From contig NZ_MQVV01000016.1 in assembly GCF_002954355.1 (NCBI RefSeq), positions 186,001 to 250,000 on the forward strand: a stretch of DNA of 64,000 nt, written 5' to 3'. Origin of the DNA: Nonlabens tegetincola (GTDB lineage Bacteria > Bacteroidota > Bacteroidia > Flavobacteriales > Flavobacteriaceae). A program made the position numbers and the translations under genes. Within the stretch, counting starts at the first letter, position 1. Each line of letters begins with the position of its first letter. The notes under the pieces are model-generated. The model saw only the letters and a program-made list of their open reading frames with translations, had not been told where the DNA came from and made no database searches. Positions 644-63,172 of the stretch are shown here, piece by piece.

Positions 644-663
644 TACGCTTTCGCGAAAGCGTA
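644..663. repeat. 20-base perfect palindrome, copy 1 (intergenic)
   Basis: TACGCTTTCGCGAAAGCGTA, a perfect 20-base inverted repeat. It lies in the 282-base gap between the acyltransferase and the DUF6624 lipoprotein. First of 13 exact-core copies in the window. Nothing else was recognised in the gap except a weak GTATCT...AGGTAC pairing near 708-720. Confidence 0.95.
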
Positions 664-814
664 AACACAACCATCCTGGTGTATAATTAGTGTCATACGT
701 TTAATGAGCAAGTATCTATAGGTACAGGTTGTCCCATTCCTGTTACTTAAAACATGGTATCTTTATCCACAATTAAATGCTTAAACCTAATTGTAACCTT
801 ATAACCTATTGAAA

Positions 815-1507
815 ATGAATATTCATAAAATGGTAATTATCGTGTTAATGATAAGCTTTATAAGTTGTAAAAAACAAGATGTAAAGGATCACTCCGATCA
901 CGTAGAATTGAATATGGATTTGAAAAATGAATTGGAAACCATTTTAATCAAAGATCAAGGAATAAGGGAACTTGTAAATGGAAATGTAAGTGATGAAAGA
1001 AAAGCAGAATTGCTAGTACAAATGCAAATCAATGAATCGGATATTGAAGGAAATAAACGATTTGAACTCATGCAACAAATTGACAGTATTAATTTAGCTA
1101 AAATCGAAAAAATCATTGAAGAATATGGCTATCCTGGTAAATCTCTAGTAGGAGAACCTGCAAATAAAGCGGCTTTTTACGTCATACAACATTCCAAACA
1201 AATAGGCACCTATTTACCATTGATTAGAGAGGCTGCAGCGGCTGGTGACATCGCTCAAACATCCCTAGCAATGATGGAAGATAGGAACCTGATGGAGCAA
1301 GGTCAAGAACAGATTTATGGAACACAAATCAAAGGAAAAGCCAATAAACAAGGGGCATGGATCTATTTCTTGTGGCCTGTTAAAAATGCAGATTCGGTTA
1401 ATTTAAGGAGAAAAGAAATTGGATTTGACCAAAGCCTTGAAGAATACCTAAAAAGTATGGATGTAGAGTTCCAATTGTACACCTTAAATGAAGTAAATGA
1501 ACTGTAA
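815..1507 (+). CDS. DUF6624-like lipoprotein
   Basis: Start chosen at ATG 815, because it gives a compact lipoprotein signal (MNIHKMVIIVLMISFISC) with the lipobox Cys at residue 18; a TTG two codons upstream is possible. The mature part is mostly helical, with YGYPGKSLVGEPANKAA, a QHS stretch, EDR, a YGTQ motif and a final RRKEIGFDQSLEEYL. This pattern fits the DUF6624 family as I remember it; function unknown. The protein is likely anchored in the inner or outer membrane facing the periplasm. It stands alone, followed by a 124-base gap and another lipoprotein. Confidence 0.75.
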   Translation: MNIHKMVIIVLMISFISCKKQDVKDHSDHVELNMDLKNELETILIKDQGIRELVNGNVSDERKAELLVQMQINESDIEGNKRFELMQQIDSINLAKIEKIIEEYGYPGKSLVGEPANKAAFYVIQHSKQIGTYLPLIREAAAAGDIAQTSLAMMEDRNLMEQGQEQIYGTQIKGKANKQGAWIYFLWPVKNADSVNLRRKEIGFDQSLEEYLKSMDVEFQLYTLNEVNEL

Positions 1508-1631
1508 CATCTTTTACAACAACTAATTATCTTAATTAAACTCTTTTTTATCTATCTTTAAAAGATTATGACTCATGCTTAACGACTGGTTAGAGGTGCA
1601 TGCTGTCAAACAATCAAAAAATTAAAAGAGT

Positions 1632-2597
1632 TTGAAGTATTTTATTGTAATCCTAGCAGTTGCTATTGTCCTCGGTTTGATAGGCTGTGACAGTAAGGAA
1701 AAAACATCCCAAATAGCCTACGCCTCACAACCTATCACCACGCCTACTCCTTTTGCCGAAGGAGTAATATCAACTAATGACAATAGCGAGTTTGATATTA
1801 CTTTTACTCCAGATGGGCTTACAGCCTACTTTTCTAGAAGAGCTCCAGGAGAAAAACAAAAGATCTATGTCACTCGATTTCTAAATGAATCCTGGTCAAC
1901 TCCTACCCTAGCCGAATTCTCGACAGACCGTGACGAAACGGCCTTTATTTCTCCTGATGGCAAGTATTTTTTCTTTGGATCAGAACGACCTATTCCTGAT
2001 AAACCCAATCAAGGGAATTTTGATATGAATATCTGGATGATGGAAAAAACTAAAGATGGATGGAGCGATCCAGAACCGTTACCAGAACCAATCAATGAAG
2101 TTCAAGTTAAAGAAGAAGAATGGCCGTCATCCAACAATAATTTCTTTTTTACCAACGACAATTACAGGTACTATTACACCACGATGATGCGCGGTACACA
2201 AAGTGTAAAACTGTATACAACTACTTATGATGGAGAAACATTTTCACAACCCGAAGTGATTAATGGCATTTTTGATGATGATAAAACCTGGATTTATTCT
2301 GCTGTACTTTCTCCAAATGGTGAGTATCTTGTTTTTAACTCTTACGATGCTTCAGGAGGAACCGGTGGTGAAGATATATTCATTTCAAAAAAAACAGTTG
2401 ACGGATGGAGCAAGGCCAAACCTATAGGAAGCCTGATCAACACAAAGGATGAGGAAAGCAGTCCTCGATTTTCTAGAGACGGCAAGTATTTCTTTTTTAG
2501 CCGTGCAGAAAATTTAGGTAATTATGAATACGGTGAATGGAGTATTTATTTTATCGAAACAGAATCTCTCCACCTAGAAAACCTATTTGAACAGTAA
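1632..2597 (+). CDS. PD40/TolB-like beta-propeller lipoprotein
   Basis: The 321-residue frame starts with TTG at 1632; no ATG precedes the signal, and KYFIVILAVAIVLGLIGC needs this start, giving lipobox Cys19. The body holds repeated strands of the type FTPDGLTAYFSRR, ISPDGKYFFFGS, LSPNGEYLVFNS and FSRDGKYFFFSR, i.e. four or more PD40/WD40-like blades as in TolB and dipeptidyl peptidase propellers. Such lipoproteins are common in Bacteroidota; partners are unknown. The next gene starts 42 bases downstream, so co-transcription is likely. Confidence 0.8.
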   Translation: MKYFIVILAVAIVLGLIGCDSKEKTSQIAYASQPITTPTPFAEGVISTNDNSEFDITFTPDGLTAYFSRRAPGEKQKIYVTRFLNESWSTPTLAEFSTDRDETAFISPDGKYFFFGSERPIPDKPNQGNFDMNIWMMEKTKDGWSDPEPLPEPINEVQVKEEEWPSSNNNFFFTNDNYRYYYTTMMRGTQSVKLYTTTYDGETFSQPEVINGIFDDDKTWIYSAVLSPNGEYLVFNSYDASGGTGGEDIFISKKTVDGWSKAKPIGSLINTKDEESSPRFSRDGKYFFFSRAENLGNYEYGEWSIYFIETESLHLENLFEQ

Positions 2598-2639
2598 TTG
2601 AAAAACCTAAATGTTCTTCTGAACAAAAAACCTAGTTCC

Positions 2640-3191
2640 ATGAAAAATACCTCGTACTTTTTTTATTTCTCTATATGGGTTGCTTTGCTTTTTGCTGTGC
2701 AACCTGCTATAGCGCAAGAAGATGACTTTATCAATGAATATATTGAACGGCTGGAACGATCTAAAGAATATTTGATTTTGGTGGCAGAAACCATGCCCGA
2801 AGAGCAATATTCCTATCGCCCTACTGAAGAATCTCTCAGTTTTGCTGAAAACTTAATGCATATAGGTTGGGCCATGGATTGGCACAGTCAATCCTTAATG
2901 GGCGGAAGACCTGCTAGAGATTGGAACACCGATACAGAACTAAAAGTGGATAAAAAAAGTAAAGCGGAGATGATTGCCAAAATCAAAGAAACCTTTAATC
3001 TTACTATAACGTTTATCAAGAGTTTTGATACGAATAAATTAAGCGAGCGACTGGATTATTTTGGTGCCAATAGAACTAAAAGACAAATTTTATTATTACT
3101 TACCGATCATATTACCCATCATAGAGGTCAAATGCTTGTCCACTTGCGTTTAAATGGTTTAAAACCGCCTAGATATGTTCTTTATCAGTAG
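2640..3191 (+). CDS. Exported DinB-like (DUF664 type) protein
   Basis: Start taken at ATG 2640, which gives a 25-residue signal peptide ending AIAQ; an in-frame TTG at 2598 would put 14 hydrophilic residues ahead of it. The mature protein is a four-helix DinB-like fold: His74 and His82 in HIGWAMDWH, and DHITHHRGQ with His157, His160 and His161 near the C-terminus, the usual metal-binding set. DinB proteins bind a divalent metal, and many act in thiol or bacillithiol-type chemistry. An exported form is commonly seen in Bacteroidota, but its substrate is unknown. Confidence 0.82.
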   Translation: MKNTSYFFYFSIWVALLFAVQPAIAQEDDFINEYIERLERSKEYLILVAETMPEEQYSYRPTEESLSFAENLMHIGWAMDWHSQSLMGGRPARDWNTDTELKVDKKSKAEMIAKIKETFNLTITFIKSFDTNKLSERLDYFGANRTKRQILLLLTDHITHHRGQMLVHLRLNGLKPPRYVLYQ

Positions 3192-3280
3192 TGTATTTGT
3201 TTTAGGTGCTGCAAGGATTATAATGATTATCTAATTACTCAAATCATTTCTTATTGCTATAAATTTGTTGTTGAAACCTT

Positions 3281-6460: not shown

Positions 6461-6480
6461 TACGCTTTCGCGAAAGCGTA
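6461..6480. repeat. 20-base perfect palindrome, copy 2 (intergenic)
   Basis: TACGCTTTCGCGAAAGCGTA, identical to copy 1, in the 329-base gap ahead of the acetolactate-decarboxylase-like gene. That gap also holds 3' repeat copy 3 and the GTACCT/AGGTAC inverted repeat. Confidence 0.95.
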
Positions 6481-6584
6481 AAAACCAATAACCCTTAGTA
6501 TTGAGTAGTCCTTGCAGGCAGAAAAACGGTTTGATTAGATTGCTGTATCTTAGTTTTACTAAAAGTATGACCATCACAAATCCT

Positions 6585-7316
6585 ATGAAATTACCATATA
6601 CTGCAATTGCTGTGCTAGCCAGCCTACTTTTAGGTTGTCATTCAGCCGAGAAGAAAAAAACCACTGAAGAAGAAAAAACCTATGCCGACGTTGAAGTGGT
6701 GAGCGCCATGAGAAATGTCATGTGGAAAGGTGAACTGGGCAGTAACATACAGTTAGATAGTATTTCCAATAAAAAAGGACTTTACGGGATTGGTCCCGTG
6801 AGTTACCTACAAGGTGAATTACTCATCAACGATGGTAGTAGCTATGTGTCTACCGTGGTGACAGATTCCGCCATGAAAGTGACAAAAACTTATAAAGTCG
6901 GTGCGCCCTTTTTTGTTTATACCCATGTAAAAGAATGGCAACAAGTGGACGTTCCTGCTAGTGTAAAGAACATTAAACAATTAGAAACATTCATCAGTAA
7001 TCAAGTTAAGGACATGAAAAAACCACTTGCCTTTAAGCTCGCTGGTCATGTTGCTAGCGCTCACATTCATATTCAAAACCTACCTGATGGTGCTGTAGTT
7101 TCATCACCGCAGGAAGCACATCAAGGTCAAGTAAACTATAAATTACATGATGAGGCTGTTGAGATTGTAGGTTTCTACTCTACCGAGCACAAAGGAATTT
7201 TTACACATCACGATTCCTTTGTACACATGCATTTAATAACGCAGGATGAGCTTCAAATGGGACATCTTGACGAGGTAGAAATTAAGGACATGAAATTATT
7301 TTTACCTAATAAATAG
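6585..7316 (+). CDS. Acetolactate-decarboxylase-like lipoprotein
   Basis: Start at ATG 6585 gives lipoprotein signal MKLPYTAIAVLASLLLGC (Cys18); ATG 6567 is an alternative. The body matches the alpha-acetolactate decarboxylase (BudA) fold: LQGELLINDG with Glu78, and His214-x-His216 with His227, the same 2- and 11-residue spacing as zinc ligands His194/196/207 of the Brevibacillus enzyme. ALDC turns 2-acetolactate into acetoin. Residue 151 is Lys in FKLAG, where I would expect the conserved active-site Arg. Lipid anchoring would place it outside the cytoplasm, away from acetolactate synthase, so the real substrate may differ. The next gene starts 9 bases downstream. Confidence 0.8.
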   Translation: MKLPYTAIAVLASLLLGCHSAEKKKTTEEEKTYADVEVVSAMRNVMWKGELGSNIQLDSISNKKGLYGIGPVSYLQGELLINDGSSYVSTVVTDSAMKVTKTYKVGAPFFVYTHVKEWQQVDVPASVKNIKQLETFISNQVKDMKKPLAFKLAGHVASAHIHIQNLPDGAVVSSPQEAHQGQVNYKLHDEAVEIVGFYSTEHKGIFTHHDSFVHMHLITQDELQMGHLDEVEIKDMKLFLPNK

Positions 7317-8700: not shown

Positions 8701-8791
8701 AATTGTTTGCTGCAATTTCATACTTCTATGTAAATGACATAAAAATGTATTCTTGGATACTTATTGAAATTAGAGATTTAGGTTGATATTC

Positions 8792-8807
8792 CGCTTTCGC
8801 GAAAGCG
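8792..8807. repeat. CGCTTTCGCGAAAGCG palindrome, copy 3 (intergenic)
   Basis: Exact 16-base palindrome with the TA flank on the right side only. It lies in the gap 8701-8986 just upstream of leader copy B. Confidence 0.95.
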
Positions 8808-8863
8808 TACTGCATACATACAATTAAGAAGAACTGAGGTAAAATACAATTCTTTTTCACACC

Positions 8864-8986
8864 GTTTGGGTATATTTGAGAAAACAAAACACTAACCAAA
8901 CCAACGACTACCGCACTATATAGAAGGCGAAGTATTCTGAGTAAACTCGCTATAACCTGTGCGTGTTGTAAAAACAATTGAGAAAA
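8864..8986 (+). repeat. Cassette leader copy B with promoter box
   Basis: GTTTGGG then -7 box TATATTTG (8871-8878), ACTAACCAAA, ACGACTACC, AAGGCGAAGTATTCTG, and ACTCGCTATAACCTGTGCGT before the gene. Leader copies B and C share the ATAACnTGTGCGTGTT end most clearly. The ATG is 108 bases past the box. Confidence 0.78.
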
Positions 8987-13263: not shown

Positions 13264-13282
13264 TACGCTTTCGCGAAAGCGT
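13264..13282. repeat. ACGCTTTCGCGAAAGCGT palindrome, copy 4 (intergenic)
   Basis: Exact 18-base palindrome (13265-13282) preceded by T, 59 bases from the 3' end of the minus-strand outer-membrane gene. Confidence 0.95.
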
Positions 13283-17527: not shown

Positions 17528-19573
17528 TCAGTCTGTAATTCCTTCTAAATCAAGAAGAAAAGCATACTCAAGCGCTACTTCTTTGAGTGCATCATACCTG
17601 CCAGATGCACCGCTGTGACCACTTTTCATGTCGGTTTTGAACAAGAGAAGTTTGTCGTTTGTTTTGCTTTCGCGTAAGCGGGCTACCCATTTTGCTGGTT
17701 CCCAGTATTGAACTTGTGAGTCGTGATAACCCGTTGTAACAAGAATATTAGGATAATCCTGCTCCTTTATTTGATCGTAAGGACTGTAACTGAGCATGTA
17801 TTCATAACTGTCTTTATGGTTGGGATTACCCCATTCGTCATATTCACCTGTTGTTAATGGAATAGTGTCATCAAGCATGGTACTAACGACATCAACAAAT
17901 GGTACAGCACTTAATATACCGTTGTATAGTTGTGGTGCCATGTTTATAACCGCTCCCATAAGTAGTCCACCAGCACTACCACCGCTAGCATACAATTGTT
18001 TATTAGAAGTATAGCCTTCTTTAATGAGATGTTCACTACATGCAATAAAATCTGTAAACGTGTTGCGCTTTTTAAACATTTTACCGTCTTCATACCAAGT
18101 TCTTCCCAAATACTCACCACCGCGTATGTGGGCGATAGCGTAAATAAAGCCTCTATTAAGTAAGCTGAGTCTAGCTATTGAAAAGTAAGGATCTATAGTT
18201 GCTCCATAACTACCATAACCATATAGAAGTAAAGGATTACCGGTTTCCTTTTTCATACTAGTCTTGTAAACCAAGCTTATTGGTACTTTGGTGCCGTCTG
18301 GTGCAGTAGCCCAAACTCGCTGTGACGTATAATTACTAGGATCAAAATCTGCGTCCTCTACAGGTTGTGTTTTAAGTACCTTTTTCTCTCTGGTTTCCAT
18401 ATCAAACTCTATAACGCTTGCTGGAGTTGTTAATGAGTTGTAGACATAGCGTAATTTTGTTGTATCAAACTGTAGATTGGCACCGGTGTATGCCGTATAC
18501 GTTTCATTATCGAAAGGCAGAAAGTAATCGGACGTGCCATCCCATGCCTTAATCCTAATCCTATTAAGTCCATTAAATCGATCTGAAACTACAAGAAACT
18601 TTTCAAATAGATTAAAATCCTCTAGAAGAACATCGTTGTCATGTGCTATTAAGTCTTCCCAATTTTCCTTTTCGGTAAGGTGCAAGGGCGTTTGCATTAT
18701 TTTAAAATTGGTAGCTCCATCTTTATTAGTCATGATGAAAAAATGATCCTTGTAATGCGCTACACTGTATTCTAACTCCTTTTCTCTTTCTTGAAATAAT
18801 TGAAAATCAGCGTCTGGTTGATTAGATTTTATAAAACGGACCTCATCAGACAAGGTAGAAGAGGATTTAATCATTATAAACTCCTGCGACAGTGTTTTAT
18901 ACACAAAGCAGTTGTAAATCTCATCTTCTTCTTCAAAAACCAATTCACCATCATTATCAGGGTTGGTCAATTTATATTTAAAAATGCGATTTGCTCTTAG
19001 AGTTTCTGGATCTTTTCTTGTAAAAAAGAGAGTATTGTTGTCTGCTGCCCAAGTGGAACCACCAGTGGTTAGAGGAACAGCTACATCCAGTAACTCACCT
19101 GTTTCAAGGTTTTTTACCATAAGAGTATATTCTCTTCTACCCTTTGTATCAATTCCAAAAGCGGCCAATTTATTATCAGGCGAGATATTCATCCCGGTAA
19201 ACTTGTAAAAGTCGTGACCTTGAGCCATTTCATTTACATTAAATAGCAGCTCTTCTTTTTGAGTGGCGTCATTACGCCTGTAATAATATGGGTAGCTCTC
19301 ACCTACTTCCATTTTGGTATAATACCAATATCCGTTAAATAGATAAGGAACCGATTCATCATCTTCTTTAAGTCTACCTTTTATTTCTTGAAAAAGAGAT
19401 TCTTTAAGATCATCGGTATGAGCTGTCATGGCATCGTAATAATCATTCTCTTGTTCCAGATACGAAAGAACCTCTGGTGCGTCTCTTTCTCTCATCCAGT
19501 TGTAGTGGTCGATTCTTTGATGTCCGTGTTTTTCGTGAACGTGCGGTATTTTTTTTGCCACAGGTAACTTCAT
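17528..19573 (-). CDS. ptrB: Oligopeptidase B-like serine peptidase
   Basis: 681 residues from ATG 19573; a 15-residue upstream extension is ignored because it adds nothing family-like. N-terminal seven-bladed propeller, then an alpha/beta-hydrolase domain with GGSAGG and nucleophile Ser533, and a C-terminal TGYHDSQVQYWEPAKW and SGHSGASGRYD (Asp and His of the triad). Oligopeptidase B cuts small peptides after Lys or Arg, usually in the cytoplasm; no signal peptide is visible. A degraded palindrome (GCTTTCGCGTAAGC) lies in its 3' part and codes for LRESK. Confidence 0.88.
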   Translation of the reverse strand: MKLPVAKKIPHVHEKHGHQRIDHYNWMRERDAPEVLSYLEQENDYYDAMTAHTDDLKESLFQEIKGRLKEDDESVPYLFNGYWYYTKMEVGESYPYYYRRNDATQKEELLFNVNEMAQGHDFYKFTGMNISPDNKLAAFGIDTKGRREYTLMVKNLETGELLDVAVPLTTGGSTWAADNNTLFFTRKDPETLRANRIFKYKLTNPDNDGELVFEEEDEIYNCFVYKTLSQEFIMIKSSSTLSDEVRFIKSNQPDADFQLFQEREKELEYSVAHYKDHFFIMTNKDGATNFKIMQTPLHLTEKENWEDLIAHDNDVLLEDFNLFEKFLVVSDRFNGLNRIRIKAWDGTSDYFLPFDNETYTAYTGANLQFDTTKLRYVYNSLTTPASVIEFDMETREKKVLKTQPVEDADFDPSNYTSQRVWATAPDGTKVPISLVYKTSMKKETGNPLLLYGYGSYGATIDPYFSIARLSLLNRGFIYAIAHIRGGEYLGRTWYEDGKMFKKRNTFTDFIACSEHLIKEGYTSNKQLYASGGSAGGLLMGAVINMAPQLYNGILSAVPFVDVVSTMLDDTIPLTTGEYDEWGNPNHKDSYEYMLSYSPYDQIKEQDYPNILVTTGYHDSQVQYWEPAKWVARLRESKTNDKLLLFKTDMKSGHSGASGRYDALKEVALEYAFLLDLEGITD
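17665..17679. repeat. Degenerate palindrome, inside the oligopeptidase gene
   Basis: GCTTTCGCGTAAGC differs from the 14-base core by one base (A to T in the right arm). It lies 4.4 kb from copy 4, where a copy would be expected from the spacing seen elsewhere. Confidence 0.6.
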
Positions 19574-19711
19574 GTATGCTCTTTTTTTAACCGGCGCAAG
19601 ATACGCAGATATTACCAAGCAATTGTCATCGTTAACTCACTATTCAATAAGCATTTCAAATCATGACTGTAAGGTTATAAATGTCTATTTTTGCAAATAA
19701 AATTTAGATCT

Positions 19712-21570: not shown

Positions 21571-21590
21571 TACGGTCGCGAAAGCTTACC
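21571..21590. repeat. Degenerate palindrome in the aroB/proline dehydrogenase gap
   Basis: TACGGTCGCGAAAGCTTACC keeps the right half (TCGCGAAAGC) of the palindrome, but the left arm has decayed. It fills the second half of the 10.5-kb interval that lacks an exact copy. Confidence 0.5.
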
Positions 21591-22927: not shown

Positions 22928-24160
22928 TTAACCAACTACTACCCTATTTTCAGCTTTATCGATCACAGCTTGTGCTGCAGCGGCACCGTTAAGCATGGCC
23001 GCATTTAAAGAGGAATTACTCAAATGATCACCTGCAAGAAATACATGCTGCGTAAGTTGCGTTTCAGTACTTGGTAACGCATAATTAAGGTTATTAAGCA
23101 CTGGTAACGCCTTCTTAATCTTGAAATATTTGATCATGTCACCTAGCTCTATTCCAGTTTCCTGCTTCAATTCTTGAGCAAGCAAACTAGATAGCTCTTC
23201 TTCGGTTTGTGTGTAATCCTTAACCACCGTAATACTTATTACTTTTTGATGATTTGGGAATACATCATGTAAAAAATGGAAATTATTAGCATATCCATTA
23301 CCAGTGAGCAATCCAATGATAGGCTGTTTGAATCCTTCATGGTCGGTCTTAAAATAAAATACTGTAGTTTGTTTCCAGTCTTGTTGTTGGTTACGTAAGT
23401 TAGGTACCACATCACTTGCTGGAGTAGCAACTATAGTATAATCGCTTTGAACTTGACTACCATCCTTAAACGTTAATTGATTCCCGACTACCTCGAGTAA
23501 TTCTTTATTGTAATTAATATCAATGTCATTTGAGAGTTGTTCAGGAATAGCCTTAATTCCCCTTGCAGGAATAGTTGCGTTTCCTGTTGCAAACATTTTG
23601 AAAACAAACTCAAACATGCGGCTGCTCGTTTCCAATTTATCCTCAAGAAATATTCCCGCATAAAAAGGCCTGAAAAAATTTTCAATAATTTTATCTGAAA
23701 AACCGTAATCTTTCAAGTATTGTTCGGTCGTTATCTCAGGTGTAGAAAATATGTCCGATAGTGATTTTTGTTTAAGCTTTCGCGAAAGCGTAAAAACCTT
23801 CCATTTATCTCCTAGGGTACCTATACCAGCAAATATCGTAGGTAATAAAAATTTAAGGTCTCTAGAGGCATCACCTAATTTGTAGGTACGGCCGTCTTTA
23901 AAGATTACAGCTCCAGGAGCAAATTTGATTAAGTCTAAAGATGATGTGTCTAAATAATCTTTTACTGCTGGATATTCATCTAACATTACCTGAAAACCCA
24001 AATCCATTATTACGTTGTTCTCAACAATAGTGTGTACACGTCCACCTGGATGAGTGTTTTTTTCAAAAATGATAGGTTCGTATCCTTGATTTTTAAGAGT
24101 TTGAGCAGCTACAAGTCCACTTACTCCAGCACCAATAATGACTATCTTTTTATTCTCCAT
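22928..24160 (-). CDS. FAD-dependent amine-oxidase/phytoene-desaturase-like oxidoreductase
   Basis: 410 residues. N-terminal dinucleotide fold GAGVSGLVAAQTL with IIFEKNTHPGGRVHT, an Rxxx-Arg signature of the flavin amine oxidase/protoporphyrinogen oxidase superfamily; the C-terminal VFLAGDHLSNSSLNAAMLNGAAAAQAV closes the FAD site. Substrate unknown: carotenoid, sterol-like and amine substrates are all possible, and no crt or hem gene is next to it. The palindrome at 23776 codes for LSRKL in the middle. Likely cytoplasmic or membrane-associated. Confidence 0.82.
   Translation of the reverse strand: MENKKIVIIGAGVSGLVAAQTLKNQGYEPIIFEKNTHPGGRVHTIVENNVIMDLGFQVMLDEYPAVKDYLDTSSLDLIKFAPGAVIFKDGRTYKLGDASRDLKFLLPTIFAGIGTLGDKWKVFTLSRKLKQKSLSDIFSTPEITTEQYLKDYGFSDKIIENFFRPFYAGIFLEDKLETSSRMFEFVFKMFATGNATIPARGIKAIPEQLSNDIDINYNKELLEVVGNQLTFKDGSQVQSDYTIVATPASDVVPNLRNQQQDWKQTTVFYFKTDHEGFKQPIIGLLTGNGYANNFHFLHDVFPNHQKVISITVVKDYTQTEEELSSLLAQELKQETGIELGDMIKYFKIKKALPVLNNLNYALPSTETQLTQHVFLAGDHLSNSSLNAAMLNGAAAAQAVIDKAENRVVVG
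23776..23789. repeat. GCTTTCGCGAAAGC palindrome, copy 5 (in a coding region)
   Basis: Exact 14-base core with an extra CG on the right, inside the flavoprotein gene. It is translated in the LSRK frame (TLSRKLKQK). Confidence 0.92.
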
Positions 24161-27144: not shown

Positions 27145-27655
27145 TAATCAATTGATAAATCAGTTCGTCTTTATAACCATCTGGAGTAGCGATCCAGTCT
27201 TTTTTTATTCCGCTTTCGCGAAAGCGTAATCTCTCAAACAACATTCTACTAGCTACATTATCCGTAGATATACTGGCATGTAGCTGGTGTAATCTAAGGT
27301 GTTTAAAAGCATATTCAATCATGAGTTGTAAACCAGCACGCGCGAGACCTTTTTTACGATGAGGTGTATCGATAACAATTCCAATTCCGGCACGATTATG
27401 AAATGGATCAAAATCATAGAGGTCTACCAAACCAGCAATTTGATCGCTATGGGTACAAATGGCTAGTCGCAGCTGCTTAACTTCATAAATATCTCGGTGA
27501 GCATTTTCTAAATACTCTCGTATCGTAAATCTAGAGTAAGGAGCTAGTAAATTCCCTACTTCCCATAATTCAGAATCATTCTCTAGCTGATAGATGTATT
27601 CCATATCAGCCAGATCAACAGCGCGCAGGTAACAAGTTTCATTCCTCAACATCAT
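27137..27655 (-). CDS. GNAT acetyltransferase (RimJ/RimL-like)
   Basis: 172 residues. MLRNETCYLRAVDLADMEYIYQLEND, then AGIGIVIDTPHRKKGLARAGLQLMIEYAF with a modified acyl-CoA loop RKKGLA, LHQLHASISTDNVASRMLFERLRF and a final DGYKDELIYQL. This is the RimJ/RimL/SpeG-like layout; substrate unknown. ATG at 27655 or 27652 can both serve. It overlaps dapF by 4 bases upstream and mltG by 8 bases downstream. The palindrome at 27211 codes for RFRES near the C-terminus. Confidence 0.85.
   Translation of the reverse strand: MMLRNETCYLRAVDLADMEYIYQLENDSELWEVGNLLAPYSRFTIREYLENAHRDIYEVKQLRLAICTHSDQIAGLVDLYDFDPFHNRAGIGIVIDTPHRKKGLARAGLQLMIEYAFKHLRLHQLHASISTDNVASRMLFERLRFRESGIKKDWIATPDGYKDELIYQLINE
27211..27226. 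repeat. CGCTTTCGCGAAAGCG palindrome, copy 6 (in a coding region)
   Basis: Exact 16-base palindrome inside the GNAT gene, translated in the RFRES frame (LRFRESG). Confidence 0.93.
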
Positions 27656-30637: not shown

Positions 30638-32512
30638 TTAACGTATTAGTGAAAAATGACCCGTGATAGATTTATTATCATAGTCCAATTTAAACCAGTA
30701 ATCACTACTTGGTAAAGGTTGCCCGTTGTATGTTCCATCCCATCCTACTCTAACCGCGATATCATTTATCTCCTTGATCAACTTACCGTGTCTATCAAAT
30801 ATTTGGAGTCTGGCATCTGGAAAGTTTCTTAACCCTTCAAAATTAAAATAGTCATTAAAACCATCTTGATTAGGAGTAAAAAACTGAGGTATAATTATTC
30901 TGTTGTATTCTTGTTGAACTATCGTACAATTTAGTCTATCACGAACAAAAACAGTGACTTGAGTAAAAGTAGTAATATCAAAGTTTGGCAAATCAGACCA
31001 CCTTAAACCGTCAATACTGTATTGAAAATTTGACAAGTCAGTATTAGACAGTGTTACTTGTAAATCATTTCCAATAACGATTATTTCATCAATTATAGGA
31101 GCTTCGGTAATTGTTACAGTAAATGTCGCTGTAGAAGAACAACCGTCGTTGTTAATTACTTCTACGGTATAAATTCCTTCAGTATCAACGTCAATAGTTG
31201 GTGTACCTTCTCCAGTGCTCCATACGTAACTTGCTGGTGAGAATTGAGGATCTAGGACTACCGTTTCATCAGGACAAATTTCGTAATCTTGACTCGTTAC
31301 ATTTGGACTATTGAAGGCTAAGAAATCAATAGCAACTCTAGAATTTGAAACACAACCGCTTTGAATATCAACAGTTTCAACGTAATAAGTTCCTGGGATG
31401 GTTGTGGTATAATCATTGGAATCATCATGAATAGAGGTTCCACCTGTAGGCACGGTGTACCAAAAAGCCGTGGTCCCATTAGGCAAGGTTACTTCCATTT
31501 CTTCAGAAATACCATCACAAGCAATCACTGGATTTTGAACTGGAACTGCTAGCGGAACTGTAACATCACGAAATTCGAAAACATCAGAAAAGTTCACGCA
31601 TTGTGAATTGGATAAATTAACAGCATCTTCAGCTACTTTGACTCTATAAAAAATAGTGTCATTTAAATTAGGTGTAGTAAAAGTAGGTCCATTCTGTCCT
31701 AAAATATCAGTAAAAATAACACCATCATCGCTTTGCTGCCATTGGTACTCTGGGGTTGTGAATATGGAACTTACCGTACTTGCCGATAAAGTAATGGATT
31801 GTGCAGGATCATCCTCACATTTTGTAACAACTGTATTATTAGCCGTATCAATTATTTGTGTGGTATCACCACAAGTTCTAAAAACGATGTCATCGATGGC
31901 TAGGTCATTACCGCAACCACCAGCACCTTCATTTATTAGTTTTAAAATACATCCATTTTGTCCGGTTGCAGTAGTAAAAGTAAGACCGTATTGCTTCCAT
32001 GTAGGTGCAGGTTGTGAAAACTCAGGTGGCATTGCACCGCTTGCTAGTAAGGTGGAATCGGTAATGTCCCAAATTTCAAATCTTACTTGTATAGGAATTT
32101 CTCCAGCGCCACAAGGATTGTTGTTATCCAAAATATTGATCACCCAGGCACTAAATTCATAAGGTGTATTTTCACACAAGCCTGTTATCGGAGTTTGATA
32201 AAATAAACCTGCGGTAAAATCGGCATTTACTAAAAGCATTTTTCCATTAGGATCTCCTGTATGATCTGGAGCATCCCAAAAACTACTCAATTGTTGCATA
32301 TTACTTGAGATGGTATATTCTCCATCTTGAATACCACTATTAACGTATGTGTAGGTAGTTACATTTGCTGGTAAAGCAGGTCCATTGGTAGTTCCTGATC
32401 CAAAGGTTTCGGTAAAAATGGTTGGTCCAATTTCACCATCGCAAAATGATAATTGCGCTTTCGCGAAAGCGAAATAAAATAATACTAAAAGAGTTACAGC
32501 TATCCTTTTCAT
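30638..32512 (-). CDS. T9SS type B cargo protein with Ig-like repeats
   Basis: 624 residues from ATG 32512. Signal peptide RIAVTLLVLFYFAFAKAQ, in which the palindrome at 32456 codes for AFAKA at the cleavage site. Then a sugar-binding-like domain (TETFGSGTTNGPALPANVTTY), Ig-like/PKD-like segments (YEICPDETVVLDPQFSP, YVWSTGEGTPTIDVDTEGIYTV) and a C-terminal gliding-motility-associated sorting domain (FTPNQDGFNDYFNFEGL...IFDRHGKLI). Type B CTDs direct secretion through T9SS. Function on the cell surface, likely adhesion or degradation, cannot be told. Confidence 0.9.
   Translation of the reverse strand: MKRIAVTLLVLFYFAFAKAQLSFCDGEIGPTIFTETFGSGTTNGPALPANVTTYTYVNSGIQDGEYTISSNMQQLSSFWDAPDHTGDPNGKMLLVNADFTAGLFYQTPITGLCENTPYEFSAWVINILDNNNPCGAGEIPIQVRFEIWDITDSTLLASGAMPPEFSQPAPTWKQYGLTFTTATGQNGCILKLINEGAGGCGNDLAIDDIVFRTCGDTTQIIDTANNTVVTKCEDDPAQSITLSASTVSSIFTTPEYQWQQSDDGVIFTDILGQNGPTFTTPNLNDTIFYRVKVAEDAVNLSNSQCVNFSDVFEFRDVTVPLAVPVQNPVIACDGISEEMEVTLPNGTTAFWYTVPTGGTSIHDDSNDYTTTIPGTYYVETVDIQSGCVSNSRVAIDFLAFNSPNVTSQDYEICPDETVVLDPQFSPASYVWSTGEGTPTIDVDTEGIYTVEVINNDGCSSTATFTVTITEAPIIDEIIVIGNDLQVTLSNTDLSNFQYSIDGLRWSDLPNFDITTFTQVTVFVRDRLNCTIVQQEYNRIIIPQFFTPNQDGFNDYFNFEGLRNFPDARLQIFDRHGKLIKEINDIAVRVGWDGTYNGQPLPSSDYWFKLDYDNKSITGHFSLIR
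32456..32471. repeat. CGCTTTCGCGAAAGCG palindrome, copy 7 (in a signal-peptide codon region)
   Basis: Exact 16-base palindrome in the T9SS cargo gene. It codes for AFAKA immediately before the predicted signal peptidase cut (FAFAKA-Q). Confidence 0.93.
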
Positions 32513-32672
32513 TGAGTGCAAGATAACTAAGGTTGCTGATACTTTAACTTATAAATATATAAAGGTATTGACAGTAAATTAACAAAATTTATAAAGAGTG
32601 CTAAAGTGATATTAAGGTAAACTAAAAACAAAGAAATTCTATAACAACTGTTGTATCTTTAAAATAAAAATT

Positions 32673-36536: not shown

Positions 36537-37046
36537 ATGAACAGGAAAGCTTTATTAATGATGGTTTGTGTTTGTTTCGCTTTCGCGAAAGCGTACTCTC
36601 AACAACCGGTAGAACAAGATTCCATTGCACAAGACTCTATTAATGAAATGGTGAAACCGATGAAAAAGTCTCCTGTGGAGGCTGTACGTGAATTTTTCGA
36701 TGCATTTCACGAGCAGGATAGCGTTGCCCTAGACCAGTCCATGGCCGATAATCTGATGCTATTCTCTTATATTAAGTCTCGTTCTAAAGGAAATTCAATG
36801 GAAAAGGCGAGTAAGTCTGACTTTATGAATAGCATTTTAAATATTCCAGAAAACATGACCTTTAAGGAAACGCTTATAGAAATTAGTCATACTACTTTTG
36901 AGGATATTGCAACGGTCCATACAACCTACGAATTTCATGTTAATGGTCAATTTTCACATAGTGGTGTCAACGTATTTACCATGGTTTATTACAATGATAA
37001 ATGGTTGATAACTGGAATTACGGACACTCGGAATATGCTTTACTAA
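36537..37046 (+). CDS. Exported NTF2-like protein
   Basis: 169 residues with signal peptide MNRKALLMMVCVCFAFAKAYSQ. The codons for AFAKA come from the palindrome at 36578, right at the predicted cleavage site. The mature part has the SnoaL/DUF4440-like layout: PVEAVREFFDAFHEQDSVALDQSM, a VHTTYEFHVNGQFSHSGVNVFTMV strand pair and the final KWLITGITDTR. Function unknown. Ends before a strong terminator. Confidence 0.75.
   Translation: MNRKALLMMVCVCFAFAKAYSQQPVEQDSIAQDSINEMVKPMKKSPVEAVREFFDAFHEQDSVALDQSMADNLMLFSYIKSRSKGNSMEKASKSDFMNSILNIPENMTFKETLIEISHTTFEDIATVHTTYEFHVNGQFSHSGVNVFTMVYYNDKWLITGITDTRNMLY
36578..36593. repeat. CGCTTTCGCGAAAGCG palindrome, copy 8 (in a signal-peptide codon region)
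   Basis: Exact 16-base palindrome in the NTF2-like gene, coding AFAKA at the end of the signal peptide, as in copy 7 in an unrelated gene. Confidence 0.93.
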
Positions 37047-42067: not shown

Positions 42068-42985
42068 TTATAATTTTTTGACTAAATTAGGCAACATTCT
42101 TAGGGCAGCCAACTCTTTGAACTTTTCTTTTGCATTAATTGCTGGTGAACCAAATACGGCCTCGCCTGGTTGAATATCTTTAGACACTCCACTTTGTGCC
42201 ATAACCTCACAACCTTCTCCTAGTTTAACATCGCTGCGCACACCTACCTGACCCCATAATTTTACGTTGTCCTCAATGATTACACAGCCCGCAATTCCTA
42301 CTTGACTGGCTATAAGTACATGTCTACCCAAAACGGTATCATGTCCTATATGAACCTGATTATCCAACTTTGACCCATAACCAATAGTAGTATCGCCAGA
42401 GGCACCTCTATCAATCGTACACAAAGCACCTATTTCAACTTGATCTTCAATGACTACTCTACCGTTACTCAATAGTTTGTCATATCCAGCTTCTCTCCTT
42501 TTATAATAAAAAGCATCTCCGCCTAAAACTGTACCAGCATGTATAATAACATTATCACCTATGATACAACGATCGCCTATCGATACGTTGGCATGTATAA
42601 CCGTATTTTCACCTACGACAACCTCATTTCCTAGGCTAGCTGTGGGATGAATTAATGCCGTGGTGGCTATTGTTGAGTTCGCTTTCGCGAAAGCGCTAAA
42701 AGGAACAAAATGTTGAGTCAACTTATTGAAATCCCTAAAAGGATCGTCTGATATTAGTAAGGCTTTTCCATCTGGACAATCCACTTTTTTGTTTATTAAA
42801 ACAATGGTGGCTGCACTGTTTAATGCCTTATCGTAATACTTAGGATGATCAACAAATACAATATCTCCTGGAGTAACAACATGAATCTCGTTCATTCCTG
42901 TTACAGGAAAGTCTGCTGGCCCAACAAATTCACATTTGATCAGGTCAGCAATAAAATCTAGTCTATGAGTTTGATTGAATTTCAC
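42068..42985 (-). CDS. LpxD-like acyltransferase, second copy
   Basis: 305 residues. N-terminal uridine-binding-like domain, then left-handed beta-helix repeats (LGNEVVVGENTVIHANVSIGD, VVIEDQVEIGALCTIDRGASGDTTIGYGSKLDNQVHIGHD). His in QVHIGHDTVLG fits the LpxD catalytic position. LpxD adds a 3-hydroxyacyl chain to UDP-3-acyl-glucosamine. It is one codon-gap from efp and 24 bases from the NTF2-like gene. The palindrome at 42680 codes for AFAKA in the linker between domains. The role beside the first LpxD is open. Confidence 0.82.
   Translation of the reverse strand: MKFNQTHRLDFIADLIKCEFVGPADFPVTGMNEIHVVTPGDIVFVDHPKYYDKALNSAATIVLINKKVDCPDGKALLISDDPFRDFNKLTQHFVPFSAFAKANSTIATTALIHPTASLGNEVVVGENTVIHANVSIGDRCIIGDNVIIHAGTVLGGDAFYYKRREAGYDKLLSNGRVVIEDQVEIGALCTIDRGASGDTTIGYGSKLDNQVHIGHDTVLGRHVLIASQVGIAGCVIIEDNVKLWGQVGVRSDVKLGEGCEVMAQSGVSKDIQPGEAVFGSPAINAKEKFKELAALRMLPNLVKKL
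42680..42695. repeat. CGCTTTCGCGAAAGCG palindrome, copy 9 (in a coding region)
   Basis: Exact 16-base palindrome in the lpxD2 gene, translated as AFAKA (FSAFAKANS). Confidence 0.93.
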
Positions 42986-46852: not shown

Positions 46853-48082
46853 CTATGAATTATCCTTTAATTTAGGATGACAGTAGTAATGTTTTTGAGC
46901 AACTTTGGTAAGAGCTTTGAAACTATCTTCTTTAGTTACTTTAAGTAATTCCTTAACCTTTCCTGTTTTGGTGAGAATTTTAATAGGGTTCGCTTTCGCG
47001 AAAGCGGTATGCTTAACCACTCCTTGAAAAACGAAATAACTAGCCTGATCCTCAGACAATTTATATTGCTTTTGAAGTTGAATTATTTTACTATTCAATT
47101 TCTTTTCTGAAACAGGAGCATCTCTAAACTTGACTTTGAGTAATTGTCTATTAAGAAGCATATTACTTAATTCCCTGAGCACAAAGTCCTCATGATCGAC
47201 ATTCATTTTAAGCGCAGTAAAAACATCAGTATCATCTAACCTTGCAAACATCTTTAAATCATGAGCACTAGCCTGATCAAAATTTTCTCTAGTAATAAAG
47301 TACTCGATACGGTCTGGTAATGCAACGGCAACTTTGGACTCATACAATTCAACTAATCGCTTGAAAAAAGATTGTAATAAATGCTCGGCAGCGATCCCTG
47401 TTTTATGTAAATACACTTGCCAGTACATAAGCCTGCGCGAAGTCAAAAAATGCTCTATGCTATAAATACCCTTTTCTTCTACTACAAGCTCATCATTAAC
47501 AACATTAAGCATCGCGATAAGCCTAGTACTGTTTATATTTCCTTCTGCAACTCCTGTATAAAAACTGTCTCGTTTAAGGTAATCCAGTCGATCCATATCT
47601 AATTGACTAGAAATTAATTGTAACATAAACGGTCGATGATACTCTCCTTTAAAAATTTTAATAGCAAGCGTTAAACTACCGTTAAACTCCTCGTTAAGAG
47701 CTTGCATAAAATTTAAAGATAGCTGCTCGTGAGTAACACCTTTAACGATCTTATATTCAAGAGCATGAGAGAATGGTCCATGACCAATATCATGTAATAA
47801 AATGGTTTTATAAAGAGCATCCTCTTCCTTATCATCAATCACAACACCTTTAGATCGTAATACTTGGACTGCTTTTTGCATGAGATGCATGCATCCCAAG
47901 GCATGATGGAAACGAGTGTGATGAGCACCTGGGTAAACCAGATAACTTAATCCCATTTGTGTAATTCTACGCAACCTTTGAAAGTAAGGATGCTCAATTA
48001 ACTGAAAGATCTCTCTACTAGGAATAGAAATAAATCCATAGATAGGATCGTTTAATATTTTAAGTTTGTTTTGTTGTTTCAA
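46853..48082 (-). CDS. HD-domain phosphohydrolase
   Basis: 409 residues. HTRFHHALGCMHLM and LLHDIGHGPFSHALE carry the HD-domain metal ligands, as in dGTPase/SAMHD1-like YdhJ proteins. Substrate unknown, possibly dNTPs. The gene is divergent from porX with 31 bases between the starts. The palindrome at 46991 codes for AFAKA near the C-terminus (KHTAFAKANP). Confidence 0.85.
   Translation of the reverse strand: MKQQNKLKILNDPIYGFISIPSREIFQLIEHPYFQRLRRITQMGLSYLVYPGAHHTRFHHALGCMHLMQKAVQVLRSKGVVIDDKEEDALYKTILLHDIGHGPFSHALEYKIVKGVTHEQLSLNFMQALNEEFNGSLTLAIKIFKGEYHRPFMLQLISSQLDMDRLDYLKRDSFYTGVAEGNINSTRLIAMLNVVNDELVVEEKGIYSIEHFLTSRRLMYWQVYLHKTGIAAEHLLQSFFKRLVELYESKVAVALPDRIEYFITRENFDQASAHDLKMFARLDDTDVFTALKMNVDHEDFVLRELSNMLLNRQLLKVKFRDAPVSEKKLNSKIIQLQKQYKLSEDQASYFVFQGVVKHTAFAKANPIKILTKTGKVKELLKVTKEDSFKALTKVAQKHYYCHPKLKDNS
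46991..47006. repeat. CGCTTTCGCGAAAGCG palindrome, copy 10 (in a coding region)
   Basis: Exact 16-base palindrome in the HD-hydrolase gene, coding AFAKA. Confidence 0.93.
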
Positions 48083-48113: not shown

Positions 48114-49664
48114 ATGAATAATATCAAAATATTATGGGTAGATGACGAGGTAGATTTATTAAAACCTCACATACTCTTTTTAGAAAGTAAAGGTTACAAA
48201 GTTGATACTCGCGTGAGCGGCACAGAGGCCATTGAAGCTATTGATGAGGACAACTATGATATTGTTTTTCTTGATGAAAATATGCCTGGACTTACAGGGC
48301 TAGAAACTCTTACAGAGATAAAAGAAAAACAATCACAGCTTCCTGTCATCATGATCACTAAAAGTGAAGAGGAATACATCATGGAAGAAGCAATAGGAGC
48401 AAAAATTGCTGACTACCTTATCAAACCTGTGAACCCTAATCAAATATTACTGTCGGTAAAAAAGAATCTGGATCACTCAAGGTTGATTAATGAGAAAACA
48501 ACTAGTGATTACCAAAAAGAGTTTCAAAAAATATCAATGGAATTATCCATGATCAATTCCTATGAAGAATGGGTAAAGCTTTATCAAAAACTACTTTATT
48601 GGGAAATAGAATTAGAGGATATTGAGGATAGTGGTATGAGAGAAATATTAAATGCTCAAAAGACCGAAGCAAATCATCAGTTTTGCAAATTTATCGATCG
48701 TAATTACCCAGAATGGTTTGAAGATGAAGAAGAAGCTCCTTTATTAAGTCATCAATTATTTAGGAAAAAGGTTGTCCCTTCTTTAAAAAACAAGGAACAG
48801 GTTTTATTTGTAGTTATTGACAATTTAAGGTATGATCAATATAAAGCTTTTGAAGGGCTAGTTAACAATCATTATAAAAAACAACAAGAAGAAACATACT
48901 GCTCCATTTTACCTACAGCCACTCAATACGCTAGAAATGCCATATTTAGTGGTTTAATGCCTGAAGATATGAAGAAACGTCATCCAGAATATTGGAAAGA
49001 TGATACTGATGAAGGCGGTAAAAATATGCACGAGGCAGACTTTCTAGAAGCTCAGTTAAAAAGATTAAGATTAGATGTAAGTTGGCAATATCATAAAATC
49101 ACCAACGAAAATAACGGGAGAAAACTTGCAGATAATTTTAAATCTCAAAAAGATAACGACCTTACCGTTGTGGTCTACAACTTCGTCGATATGCTCTCTC
49201 ATTCTAAAACTGAAATGGAGGTTATAAAAGAACTAGCTAGTAATGACAAAGCATACCGTTCCTTAACCTTAAGTTGGTTCAAAAATTCACCTTTACTAGA
49301 AATCATACAACGTGCGCAGCAATTGGGTATGAAACTAATCCTAACCACTGACCACGGTACGATAAATGTGACAACACCTAGTAAAGTAATTGGTGATAAG
49401 AATACGAGTTTGAATTTGAGATACAAAACAGGTCGTAGTTTAACATATGAAGACAAAGATGTTCTGGCAGCTCAAGACCCAGCTACTATAAAACTTCCTA
49501 AGATCAACATGAGTAGTAGTTTCATTTTTGCCAAAGGAGATTTATTTTTTGCTTACCCTAATAATTACAATCACTACGTGAGTTATTACCGTAATACATA
49601 TCAACACGGTGGTGTGTCTATGGAAGAAATGTTAATACCAGTAGCAACTTTTGAACCTAGATAA
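48114..49664 (+). CDS. porX: PorX response regulator with PglZ phosphatase domain
   Basis: 516 residues. N-terminal receiver domain with phospho-accepting Asp54 (FLDENMPG), a helical linker and a PglZ-type alkaline-phosphatase-like domain from about residue 200 (VIDNLRYDQYKAFE, YSIL-like SILPTATQYARNAIFSGLMP, TTDHGTINV). PorX with the kinase PorY controls T9SS genes; PglZ hydrolyses cyclic oligonucleotides. porY is not in the window. The start codon of tsaE overlaps the stop by one base. Confidence 0.92.
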   Translation: MNNIKILWVDDEVDLLKPHILFLESKGYKVDTRVSGTEAIEAIDEDNYDIVFLDENMPGLTGLETLTEIKEKQSQLPVIMITKSEEEYIMEEAIGAKIADYLIKPVNPNQILLSVKKNLDHSRLINEKTTSDYQKEFQKISMELSMINSYEEWVKLYQKLLYWEIELEDIEDSGMREILNAQKTEANHQFCKFIDRNYPEWFEDEEEAPLLSHQLFRKKVVPSLKNKEQVLFVVIDNLRYDQYKAFEGLVNNHYKKQQEETYCSILPTATQYARNAIFSGLMPEDMKKRHPEYWKDDTDEGGKNMHEADFLEAQLKRLRLDVSWQYHKITNENNGRKLADNFKSQKDNDLTVVVYNFVDMLSHSKTEMEVIKELASNDKAYRSLTLSWFKNSPLLEIIQRAQQLGMKLILTTDHGTINVTTPSKVIGDKNTSLNLRYKTGRSLTYEDKDVLAAQDPATIKLPKINMSSSFIFAKGDLFFAYPNNYNHYVSYYRNTYQHGGVSMEEMLIPVATFEPR

Positions 49665-52664: not shown

Positions 52665-52684
52665 TACGCTTTCGCGAAAGCGTA
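52665..52684. repeat. 20-base perfect palindrome, copy 11 (intergenic)
   Basis: TACGCTTTCGCGAAAGCGTA in the gap between the ald operon and sucC, 79 bases upstream of the sucC -7 box. Confidence 0.95.
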
Positions 52685-58601: not shown

Positions 58602-58617
58602 CGCTTTCGCGAAAGCG
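58602..58617. repeat. CGCTTTCGCGAAAGCG palindrome, copy 12 (intergenic)
   Basis: Exact 16-base palindrome with TA on the left flank only, in the 250-base divergent gap between murA and the DUF937 gene. Confidence 0.93.
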
Positions 58618-60966: not shown

Positions 60967-60985
60967 ATGTTATTAATTTGAAAGA

Positions 60986-61435: not shown

Positions 61436-61452
61436 ATTGTTAAACTGATTAA

Positions 61453-61749: not shown

Positions 61750-61751
61750 GA

Positions 61752-62096: not shown

Positions 62097-62118
62097 ATTA
62101 ATTGTATTTAAACGGCTG

Positions 62119-62149: not shown

Positions 62150-62175
62150 CTTGTTTTTATTCCTGCTTTAAAAAG

Positions 62176-62268
62176 TTAACAATTGATTATAATTATGTAA
62201 ATGCTTAAAAATAAAAGTTTAAACAAAATTTTATTAACAATGTTATCATTAACAACTGATTAACAATG
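62176..62268. promoter_or_regulatory. Four TTAACAA repeats upstream of the LytTR gene
   Basis: TTAACAA at about 62176, 62234, 62249 and 62260, the last three as ATTAACAA at 62233, 62248 and 62259 (spacings 15 and 11). They lie 130-220 bases before the LytTR regulator start. LytTR proteins bind spaced short direct repeats, so autoregulation is a possibility; the region is AT-rich and chance is not excluded. Confidence 0.35.
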
Positions 62269-62393
62269 ATTTAGAAGTCAAGTTTTTAAGAAGCAATTCG
62301 TTTAAACATCAAATTTATTCGATAAAATGTACTTTTTTTTGCATTTCATCAGAAAAGTGTGTAGAATTGTCCAAGAAATCAAAAGTAATAAGT

Positions 62394-63098
62394 ATGAGTA
62401 ACGCAGTGCTTAATTGTTTTGTTGTGGATGATTCAAGTATCCAACGACTTTCAATCGTCAAATTAATAGAAGGTCACCCTAACCTTAGATTAGTAGGTGA
62501 GTTTAGTAATGCAGTCGAGACTAAATCTGCTCTAGAGAATCAATCCGTTGATCTCATATTTTTAGACATCGAAATGCCCATACTTACAGGATTTGATTTA
62601 TTAGATGATATCGCAGAAAAACCGGGAATTATTTTTGTAACTGGTCAAACTAAGTATGCCTTTAAAGCATTTGATTATGCGGCAATCGATTACTTACAGA
62701 AACCAATAAAAAAGGATAGGTTTTTATATGCTGTAGAACGTGCACTATTAGCACACAAGGTGAAAAACGAAATGATTGAAGATCGTGGAGAATTCATCTT
62801 TGTTAAAAGCAATCTTAAAAAACGTAAAGTGTACCTTAAAGAGCTACGATACATACAAGCTCTTGGAGATTACGTAAAGTTGATTACCGAGGAAGATAAT
62901 CTTGTCGTACTCTCGACAATGAAGTCTTTTGAAAACCTTCTTCCAGAAGAAGATTTTATGAGAATTCACAAGTCTTACATTATAAATCTTAGAAAAGTAG
63001 AAAAGTTCAATTCCAAAGCGGTTGAATTAGGAACCGATGTGTTACCTCTTTCCCGCAACAGGAAATCAGAATTAGTTGAGGCGTTGTCTCAATTTTAA
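62394..63098 (+). CDS. LytTR-family response regulator
   Basis: 234 residues from ATG 62394. Receiver domain with DD at 12-13, phospho-Asp58 (FLDIEMP) and a Lys in LQKPIKKDRF, then a LytTR DNA-binding domain from about residue 135 (FIFVKSNLKKRKVYLKELRYIQALGDYVKL, MRIHKSYIINLRKV). Activated by a partner histidine kinase that is not in the window. Targets unknown. Confidence 0.93.
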   Translation: MSNAVLNCFVVDDSSIQRLSIVKLIEGHPNLRLVGEFSNAVETKSALENQSVDLIFLDIEMPILTGFDLLDDIAEKPGIIFVTGQTKYAFKAFDYAAIDYLQKPIKKDRFLYAVERALLAHKVKNEMIEDRGEFIFVKSNLKKRKVYLKELRYIQALGDYVKLITEEDNLVVLSTMKSFENLLPEEDFMRIHKSYIINLRKVEKFNSKAVELGTDVLPLSRNRKSELVEALSQF

Positions 63099-63122
63099 AT
63101 AGTAGGTTCAATTAGGATAAAG

Positions 63123-63149
63123 AAGCATCTCATTTGAGGTGCTTTTTTA
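63123..63149. terminator. Terminator after the LytTR gene
   Basis: AAGCATCTCA-TT-TGAGGTGCTTTTTT, stem with one wobble pair and a T-run. It lies just before palindrome copy 13. Confidence 0.7.
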
Positions 63150-63152
63150 GTT

Positions 63153-63172
63153 TACGCTTTCGCGAAAGCGTA
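63153..63172. repeat. 20-base perfect palindrome, copy 13 (intergenic)
   Basis: TACGCTTTCGCGAAAGCGTA between the LytTR terminator and the 3' end of priA. Confidence 0.95.

Follow-up and report, generated by a model that had tools for sequence, protein, structure and literature searches.

A spacing-controlled 16-base palindrome iterated through the genomes of Nonlabens and Dokdonia

The palindrome in the window

A 64,000-nucleotide stretch of the Nonlabens tegetincola genome (contig NZ_MQVV01000016.1, positions 186,001 to 250,000; hereafter the window) contains a short palindrome that recurs along its length, within and between genes (Table 1). There are 13 exact copies of the 14-base core GCTTTCGCGAAAGC, and one further copy with a single mismatch. 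The core is preceded by C or followed by G, and mostly both, in 12 of the 13 exact copies (the exception being that at 23776), giving the 16-mer CGCTTTCGCGAAAGCG. No Rfam match was found within the window.

The initial annotation, made from the letters of the window, had listed the 13 exact cores, at positions that proved to be off by 0–3 nt, together with two decayed copies. The first of these, GCTTTCGCGTAAGC at 17666, departs from the core only at the mirrored position 5/10. Over 400 kb of this genome, 9 of 11 copies with a single mismatch vary there too. Because this position appears to be tolerated, the copy was taken as a probable working variant, and the working motif is close to GCTTNCGCGNAAGC. 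The second, at 21572, has 3 mismatches. Since 1.35 matches with 3 or fewer mismatches are expected in the window, it is at chance level and was excluded from the site list.

Table 1. Copies of the palindrome in the window, the marker gene used for comparison, and insertions of a second palindrome in other genomes
Feature	Position	Strand	Context
Exact site	647..660		Intergenic, between ORFs 11-532 (+) and 809-1507 (+)
Exact site	6464..6477		Intergenic, upstream of ORF 6501-7316 (+)
Exact site	8793..8806		Probably intergenic; overlaps only a doubtful 83-aa minus-strand ORF, 8726-8977
Exact site	13267..13280		Intergenic, between the ends of facing genes
One-mismatch variant GCTTTCGCGTAAGC	17666..17679		Within oligopeptidase B-like gene 17528-19618 (-)
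Exact site	23776..23789		Within ORF 22928-24160 (-); reads LSRK
Exact site	27212..27225		Within ORF 27137-27655 (-); reads RFRES
Exact site	32457..32470		ORF 30638-32521 (-), sorted by the type IX secretion system (T9SS); N terminus, codon ~16, signal-peptide-like; reads AFAKA
Exact site	36579..36592		ORF 36537-37046 (+), near N terminus, signal-peptide-like
Exact site	42681..42694		Within ORF 42068-42985 (-); reads AFAKA, also in two Nonlabens relatives
Exact site	46992..47005		Within HD-domain-like gene 46853-48082 (-); reads AFAKA
Exact site	52668..52681		Intergenic
Exact site	58603..58616		Intergenic, between the starts of divergent genes
Exact site	63156..63169		Intergenic, between the ends of facing genes
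PorX, T9SS response regulator	48114-49664		NF052313; marker gene in comparisons
Second-palindrome insertions	G004 L264:16315, L265:16715, L265:19499; Dokdonia L240:4207, L332:366 and others		Other genomes

Copy number and taxonomic range

The complete N. tegetincola assembly (3.03 Mb, 21 contigs) contains 577 exact copies of the core and 0 of the reversed pattern. The whole-genome map proposed in the initial annotation thus bears out its argument that such a site would hardly occur by chance. Composition, which it had named as a possible cause of the count, was rejected, as independent-base, third-order Markov and reversed-pattern controls all gave values near 0.

All 22 of the other genomes of the genus searched carry the core, in 288–857 copies. 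It is also abundant in a Dokdonia genome (G242, with a PorX identical to that of D. sinensis; 857 copies) and in a genome of a third genus (G226; 408 copies). In a survey of 299 Flavobacteriaceae genomes, which included N. tegetincola and two others of its genus, the remaining 294 contained 0–19 copies, and 394 other Bacteroidota genomes (395 surveyed including N. tegetincola) contained at most 6. Among named genomes, the PorX proteins most similar to that of the window are from Nonlabens (84 and 83% identity). The site was present at 5 of 80 named PorX loci: two from Nonlabens, two from Dokdonia, and one from a metagenome-assembled genome whose PorX is closest to that of Dokdonia. The PorX tree did not settle whether the three site-bearing genera form a clade (support of 0.16 for the Nonlabens-Dokdonia node).

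Spacing of the sites

The 14 sites of the window are separated by gaps of 2.3–6.1 kb (mean 4.8 kb), with a coefficient of variation (CV) of 0.24. For the 13 exact sites the CV is 0.39, matched by 0.055% of 20,000 uniform placements. Across 400 kb of the same genome, gaps between exact copies average 5.0 kb (CV 0.48, reached by 0 of 20,000 uniform placements), and 0 of 79 are shorter than 1 kb, compared with 14.3 expected. The same 400 kb also gave a CV of 0.47, and two other Nonlabens genomes gave 0.44 and 0.56. The regularity reported in the initial annotation (CV 0.28) is therefore real, but weaker beyond the window (0.44–0.56 in Nonlabens), and its value owes something to local chance added to a real effect.

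For 258 motif gaps pooled from four Nonlabens genomes (CV 0.48), which are not fully independent because they include orthologous stretches of genomes G004 and G020, the hazard of meeting the next site was 0.012 per kb below 1 kb, then 0.10, 0.23, 0.42, 0.46, 0.55 and 0.63 (6–8 kb), and 0.58 beyond, a rise of about 50-fold from <1 kb to 6–8 kb. A gamma distribution (shape 4.45) described these gaps with a log-likelihood of −524 compared with −629 for an exponential, a difference of 105 log units; the exponential gaps named beforehand as evidence against selection for even distribution were not found. Placement among near-match slots gave a CV of 0.99 (minimum 0.71 in 2000 draws) compared with the observed 0.47, and count and spacing are not accounted for by uniform placement, by near-match slots, by shuffling dinucleotides or by Markov models. 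The scarcity of short gaps, the rising hazard and the strong conservation of orthologous copies (see below) uphold the earlier proposal that spread-out copies are selected. A HisB-like ORF (L243:2734-3843) contains one of the rare close pairs, separated by 270 bp and with AFAKA read at each site; G004 likewise has a pair at a distance of 270 bp.

A dependence on distance from the origin, also suggested for checking, was sought in one complete genome (G019). Twenty samples of 20 kb gave no origin-terminus trend (Spearman −0.02 with distance from parS). The half around parS had 5.3 sites and the opposite half 4.7, with no depletion at the terminus.

Even spacing would also be expected of a DNA-uptake (self-recognition) sequence of natural transformation, built up by molecular drive like the uptake signal sequence (USS) of Haemophilus and the DNA uptake sequence (DUS) of Neisseria, because an incoming fragment needs no more than one site. 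This is the strongest of the rival explanations, and we consider it somewhat less likely than a role in chromosome organization. The available parts of two studies (PMC7811141, PMC2397512) describe even spacing as a prediction of drive, and uptake motifs as scarce in newly acquired DNA. The spacing of the palindrome is several times wider than that of USS and DUS, which counts against this explanation.

Motif sharpness and flanks

Over-representation of the motif falls steeply with mismatches. The 400 kb of N. tegetincola contained 80 exact, 11 one-mismatch, 1 two-mismatch and 6 three-mismatch copies, compared with 0.0004, 0.02, 0.5 and 6.9 expected, corresponding to over-representation of 184,000, 508, 2.0 and 0.9. 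The half-site GCGAAAGC was not enriched outside full motifs (6 seen, 5.4 expected), suggesting that the full dyad is required. Both features are awkward for the uptake explanation. In the available text of PMC1939737, the USS and DUS consensus sequences are non-palindromic, and the mismatch steps in the two classical cases are 82–92-fold and 7–9-fold; the mismatch ladder of N. tegetincola is sharper than either.

The unenriched half-sites also bear on the suggestion that the palindrome is a Chi-like or self-tag site governing a nuclease or recombination machine. At one per 4–5 kb, its density resembles that of Chi in E. coli, and it is found in part of the phage and island DNA. Recognition of Chi-type sites involves a single strand and needs no dyad; the strand-specific, non-dyad character of such a site was not found here, and two Nonlabens phages lack the palindrome. 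This makes a Chi-like function improbable.

The inner TCGCGA, outside the motif, is below expectation (54 seen, 94 expected). A DNA methyltransferase or repair process acting on TCGCGA or CGCG could in principle maintain the palindrome, in the manner of the HIP1 motif of cyanobacteria, GCGATCGC, which is likewise an iterated palindrome found in coding and non-coding DNA, and which contains methylase sites according to the accessible parts of PMC4390886 and PMC6604393. A six-base methylase would not need the outer bases, although TCGCGA alone is not enriched. C5 methylases (PF00145) had no match in 5 of 13 site-bearing genomes (4 of 11 Nonlabens and G226), with adenine methylases outside the search. 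A C5 methylase, not being universal among site-bearing genomes, is thus disfavored, the methylation site raised in the initial annotation is unsupported in its C5 version, and we give an explanation of this kind little credence.

Outside the core, the flanks have a symmetric base preference. Among 203 Nonlabens sites, the next outward base is G in 91%, the third is A in 79% and the fourth is A in 63%; from +4 to about +18 on both sides G is rare (2–11%) and C is common. These A-rich, G-poor flanks extend to about 25 bp from the motif centre on both sides, and the preference is the same for genic and intergenic copies. Complementarity between the left and right flanks of a site does not exceed chance except at +2, and a longer hairpin was therefore rejected. 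A protein that contacts about 50 bp symmetrically would be expected to leave a preference of this kind. The flank signal is weaker in G226 (G 0.175, compared with 0.230 genome-wide).

Conservation and genomic placement

Genomes G004 and G020 were compared over 300 kb each, with 79.0% identity over the 172 kb aligned. Of the 72 sites in G004, 42 could be aligned and 39 of these were unchanged; in the reverse direction, 42 of 73 sites could be aligned, again with 39 unchanged. Control 14-mers were unchanged in 7.3%, and controls of equal G+C in 7.5–8.7%. The flanks of the sites were near background identity. A pair of genomes at 94.8% identity retained 22 of 22 and 22 of 24 sites (control 55%), and a pair at 84.2% identity retained 7 of 8 and 7 of 7 (control 13%). 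Every core is thus being maintained, whether through selection or through recurrent conversion. Missing orthologous copies often differ by one base or carry a small insert. At the position of the 46992 site, two Nonlabens relatives encode AYAKA, ungapped, in place of AFAKA; in this sole unambiguously aligned coding case the site was gained or lost through substitution.

Placement was examined for 103 sites in 464 kb, of which 101 were classified with a crude gene finder (which misplaced the 36579 site as intergenic). The majority (65 of 101) are genic, reading AFAKA, RFRES or LSRK in the three frames (33, 19 and 13 sites), despite a 2.2-fold intergenic enrichment. Of the 36 intergenic sites, 19 are flanked by tandem genes, 12 by divergent genes and 5 by facing genes, so that all reading frames and all intergenic types are used. 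The genic majority with one preferred frame agrees with the uptake explanation.

A short palindrome that is enriched between genes, and in which a second palindrome lands (see below), might instead be a mobile repetitive extragenic palindromic (REP)-like repeat or a bidirectional terminator. With 65 of 101 copies genic, REP or BIME elements, which are defined as extragenic, are disfavored. Intrinsic terminators are disfavored by the mixed locations of the copies, with only 5 of 36 intergenic copies between facing genes, and by outward flanks that are A/C-rich rather than T-rich. REPs cluster; the copies here avoid each other. Orthologous copies stay in place, and lost ones often differ by a base or small insert. 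An origin of this type is thus very improbable.

Phages and genomic islands

The palindrome is distributed unevenly in acquired DNA. Two phages of a Nonlabens-like host, neither with an annotated integrase, contain 0 sites, and both these and a 30-kb site-free gap in a relative, accessory-looking by eye, fit the uptake explanation. On the other side, 12 IMG/VR records, which were selected for carrying the site, have 2–7 copies in 12–40 kb; one of these contains Mu-type transposase and transposition-protein families, and another a baseplate hub. The evidence is thus mixed, as Mu-like phage records and metal islands carry the site. Scarcity in new DNA is predicted both by the uptake explanation and by a role in organizing the chromosome. 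The 30-kb gap (G004:C4:297971-327625) contains ORFs that by eye are Wadjet-type, AbiEii-type and Rhs-like, and resembles accessory DNA; its Rhs-like pair is repeated at 340083.

Six genomes of other genera (G114, G123, G137, G251, G237 and G147) have few copies, in clusters (22 sites in 8 stretches, L226-L233). These stretches are homologous to one another (~71–95%), and a pair with a spacing of 933 bp is seen in five genomes. Tests of ten proteins encoded by two of the stretches identified members of the CusA/CzcA-type, multicopper oxidase and metal P-type ATPase families. From their sequence, the clusters look like transferred metal-resistance islands that have retained the marks of the donor, and the site may serve as a tracer for such islands in otherwise site-poor genera.

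Candidate readers

Canonical parS shares with the palindrome its dyad symmetry and TTTC/GAAA arms, and is present in 1–2 exact copies in 6 of 6 Nonlabens genomes. This ordinary parS alongside the site rules out ParB as the reader, for Nonlabens only; the exact parS 14-mer does not occur in G226, in Dokdonia or in 4 of 6 genomes that do not use the site (non-users). ParB_N had a single match in 8 of 10 users, and the second match in G015 and G019 is of a type shared with non-users, so that an extra ParB as reader was not seen.

ComEC was found in all 15 genomes tested. The presence of this competence family is in line with uptake, but it does not discriminate users from non-users. Two Riemerella species, also Flavobacteriaceae, are competent, and R. 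columbina favors its own DNA, according to the accessible part of PMC7965970, which lends further support to the uptake explanation. The literature searched, with subscription journals and preprints outside the search, contained no report of the 14-mer, and TTTCGCGAAA returned only off-topic matches.

Relation to known systems and proposed role

The palindrome is a highly iterated motif akin to HIP1, although it exceeds HIP1 in length and sharpness and its spacing control has been measured. According to the available text of PMC6604393, HIP1 is highly iterated, bound to a lineage, found in coding and intergenic DNA, and thought to be maintained by selection. The HIP1 comparison drawn in the initial annotation therefore holds as a likeness and not as membership. 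HIP1 has 8 bases, occurs about once per 1.1 kb in Synechocystis and contains methylase sites, whereas the palindrome has 16 bases with flanks, another sequence, and hosts in another phylum. To our knowledge, the function of HIP1-like motifs has been unsettled for decades. The palindrome provides an independent case in culturable marine bacteria with fairly small genomes, and one in which purifying selection is directly evident.

USS of Pasteurellaceae and DUS of Neisseria resemble the palindrome in their hundreds of copies, fairly even distribution, mostly genic location and frame preference, but are non-palindromic, denser, and have a longer ladder of near matches than the N. tegetincola genome. 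The NBS sites of Noc and SBS sites of SlmA, as far as the available part of PMC4726725 describes them, are chromosome-wide palindromes bound by sequence-specific division regulators, with about 24–70 copies that avoid the terminus; likeness to the present palindrome lies in the dyad, in a chromosome- or domain-wide distribution, and in functions coupled to the chromosome. These differ from it in having tens of copies, unevenly distributed between origin and terminus. The same difference applies to matS, the palindromic site of MatP.

The palindrome probably marks DNA for a protein. We tentatively favor the hypothesis that CGCTTTCGCGAAAGCG is the binding site of a candidate homodimeric protein that would act on the resident chromosome, most likely in its organization. 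One bound site would suffice for a few kb of DNA, perhaps by tethering or insulating a small domain of the chromosome. A second site nearby would be useless and a long site-free stretch would be costly. Such a local range of service would lead selection to keep about one site per 4–5 kb, genic or intergenic, from origin to terminus. We infer the protein, its dimeric state and its role from the required dyad, the symmetric flanks and the spacing. Placement and evenness are explained about equally well by uptake, which accounts less well for the full palindrome and the sharp ladder.

Several observations weigh against a role in chromosome organization. No binding protein was found among the families tested (ParB number, C5 methylases, ComEC), none of which tracks the site. 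Near matches are graded in Dokdonia, where over-representation at 0, 1, 2 and 3 mismatches is 122,000, 902, 39 and 4.3, a ladder that uptake explains better. Nonlabens G004 and G020 have 4 and 7 two-mismatch copies, compared with about 0.5 expected, and G226 also has an excess of these. Dokdonia (CV 0.74) and G226 (CV 0.81) show weak regularity, with about 1 expected for random placement, although gaps below 1 kb are still rare (1 compared with 8.6 expected, and 0 compared with 6.8 expected, respectively). Metal-resistance islands retain the site in genera that do not otherwise use it. Finally, the palindrome is about 10-fold denser than Noc and SlmA sites, and uniform.

In a more far-reaching version, which we regard as speculative and rather doubtful, the palindrome would belong to an architecture or self-identity system that spans the chromosome under spacing control and has no known counterpart. 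A putative dimeric reader of the 16-base palindrome would act in Nonlabens and Dokdonia at sites about every 4–5 kb from origin to terminus. These sites would be selected even against protein sequence, be carried by long-term resident phages and islands, and double as a watermark of DNA origin. The broader interpretation in the initial annotation, of an evenly distributed site in the manner of HIP1 or of a nucleoid, uptake or methylation site, is partly supported.

A second palindrome inserted in the site

In G004, three sites are split, with no duplication of the target, by a 20–21-base GC-rich palindrome near CCTGCCTGNCGGCAGGCAGG, where G008 or G020 has an intact site; both flanks align in two of these, and the left flank alone in the third. 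No copy of this second palindrome was found in the stretches of N. tegetincola examined. In Nonlabens stretches, 5 of 7 second palindromes lie inside the site (0–2 mismatches after joining the flanks), with two of the five being orthologous. For Dokdonia G242, 9 of 17 places were examined, 6 with 0–4 mismatches and 3 with 5–6, compared with 0.6% of random junctions having 4 or fewer. A second genome of the Dokdonia genus (G735) had it in the site at only 1 of 8 places examined, and the exact second repeat is missing from 11 of 13 genomes of that genus. In some genomes the main palindrome is thus a preferred landing place of another small repeat, as would fit some structure or processing at the site inside the cell. 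The 9 insertions examined in G242 all fall at base 4 or base 12 of the 16-mer and show no target duplication.

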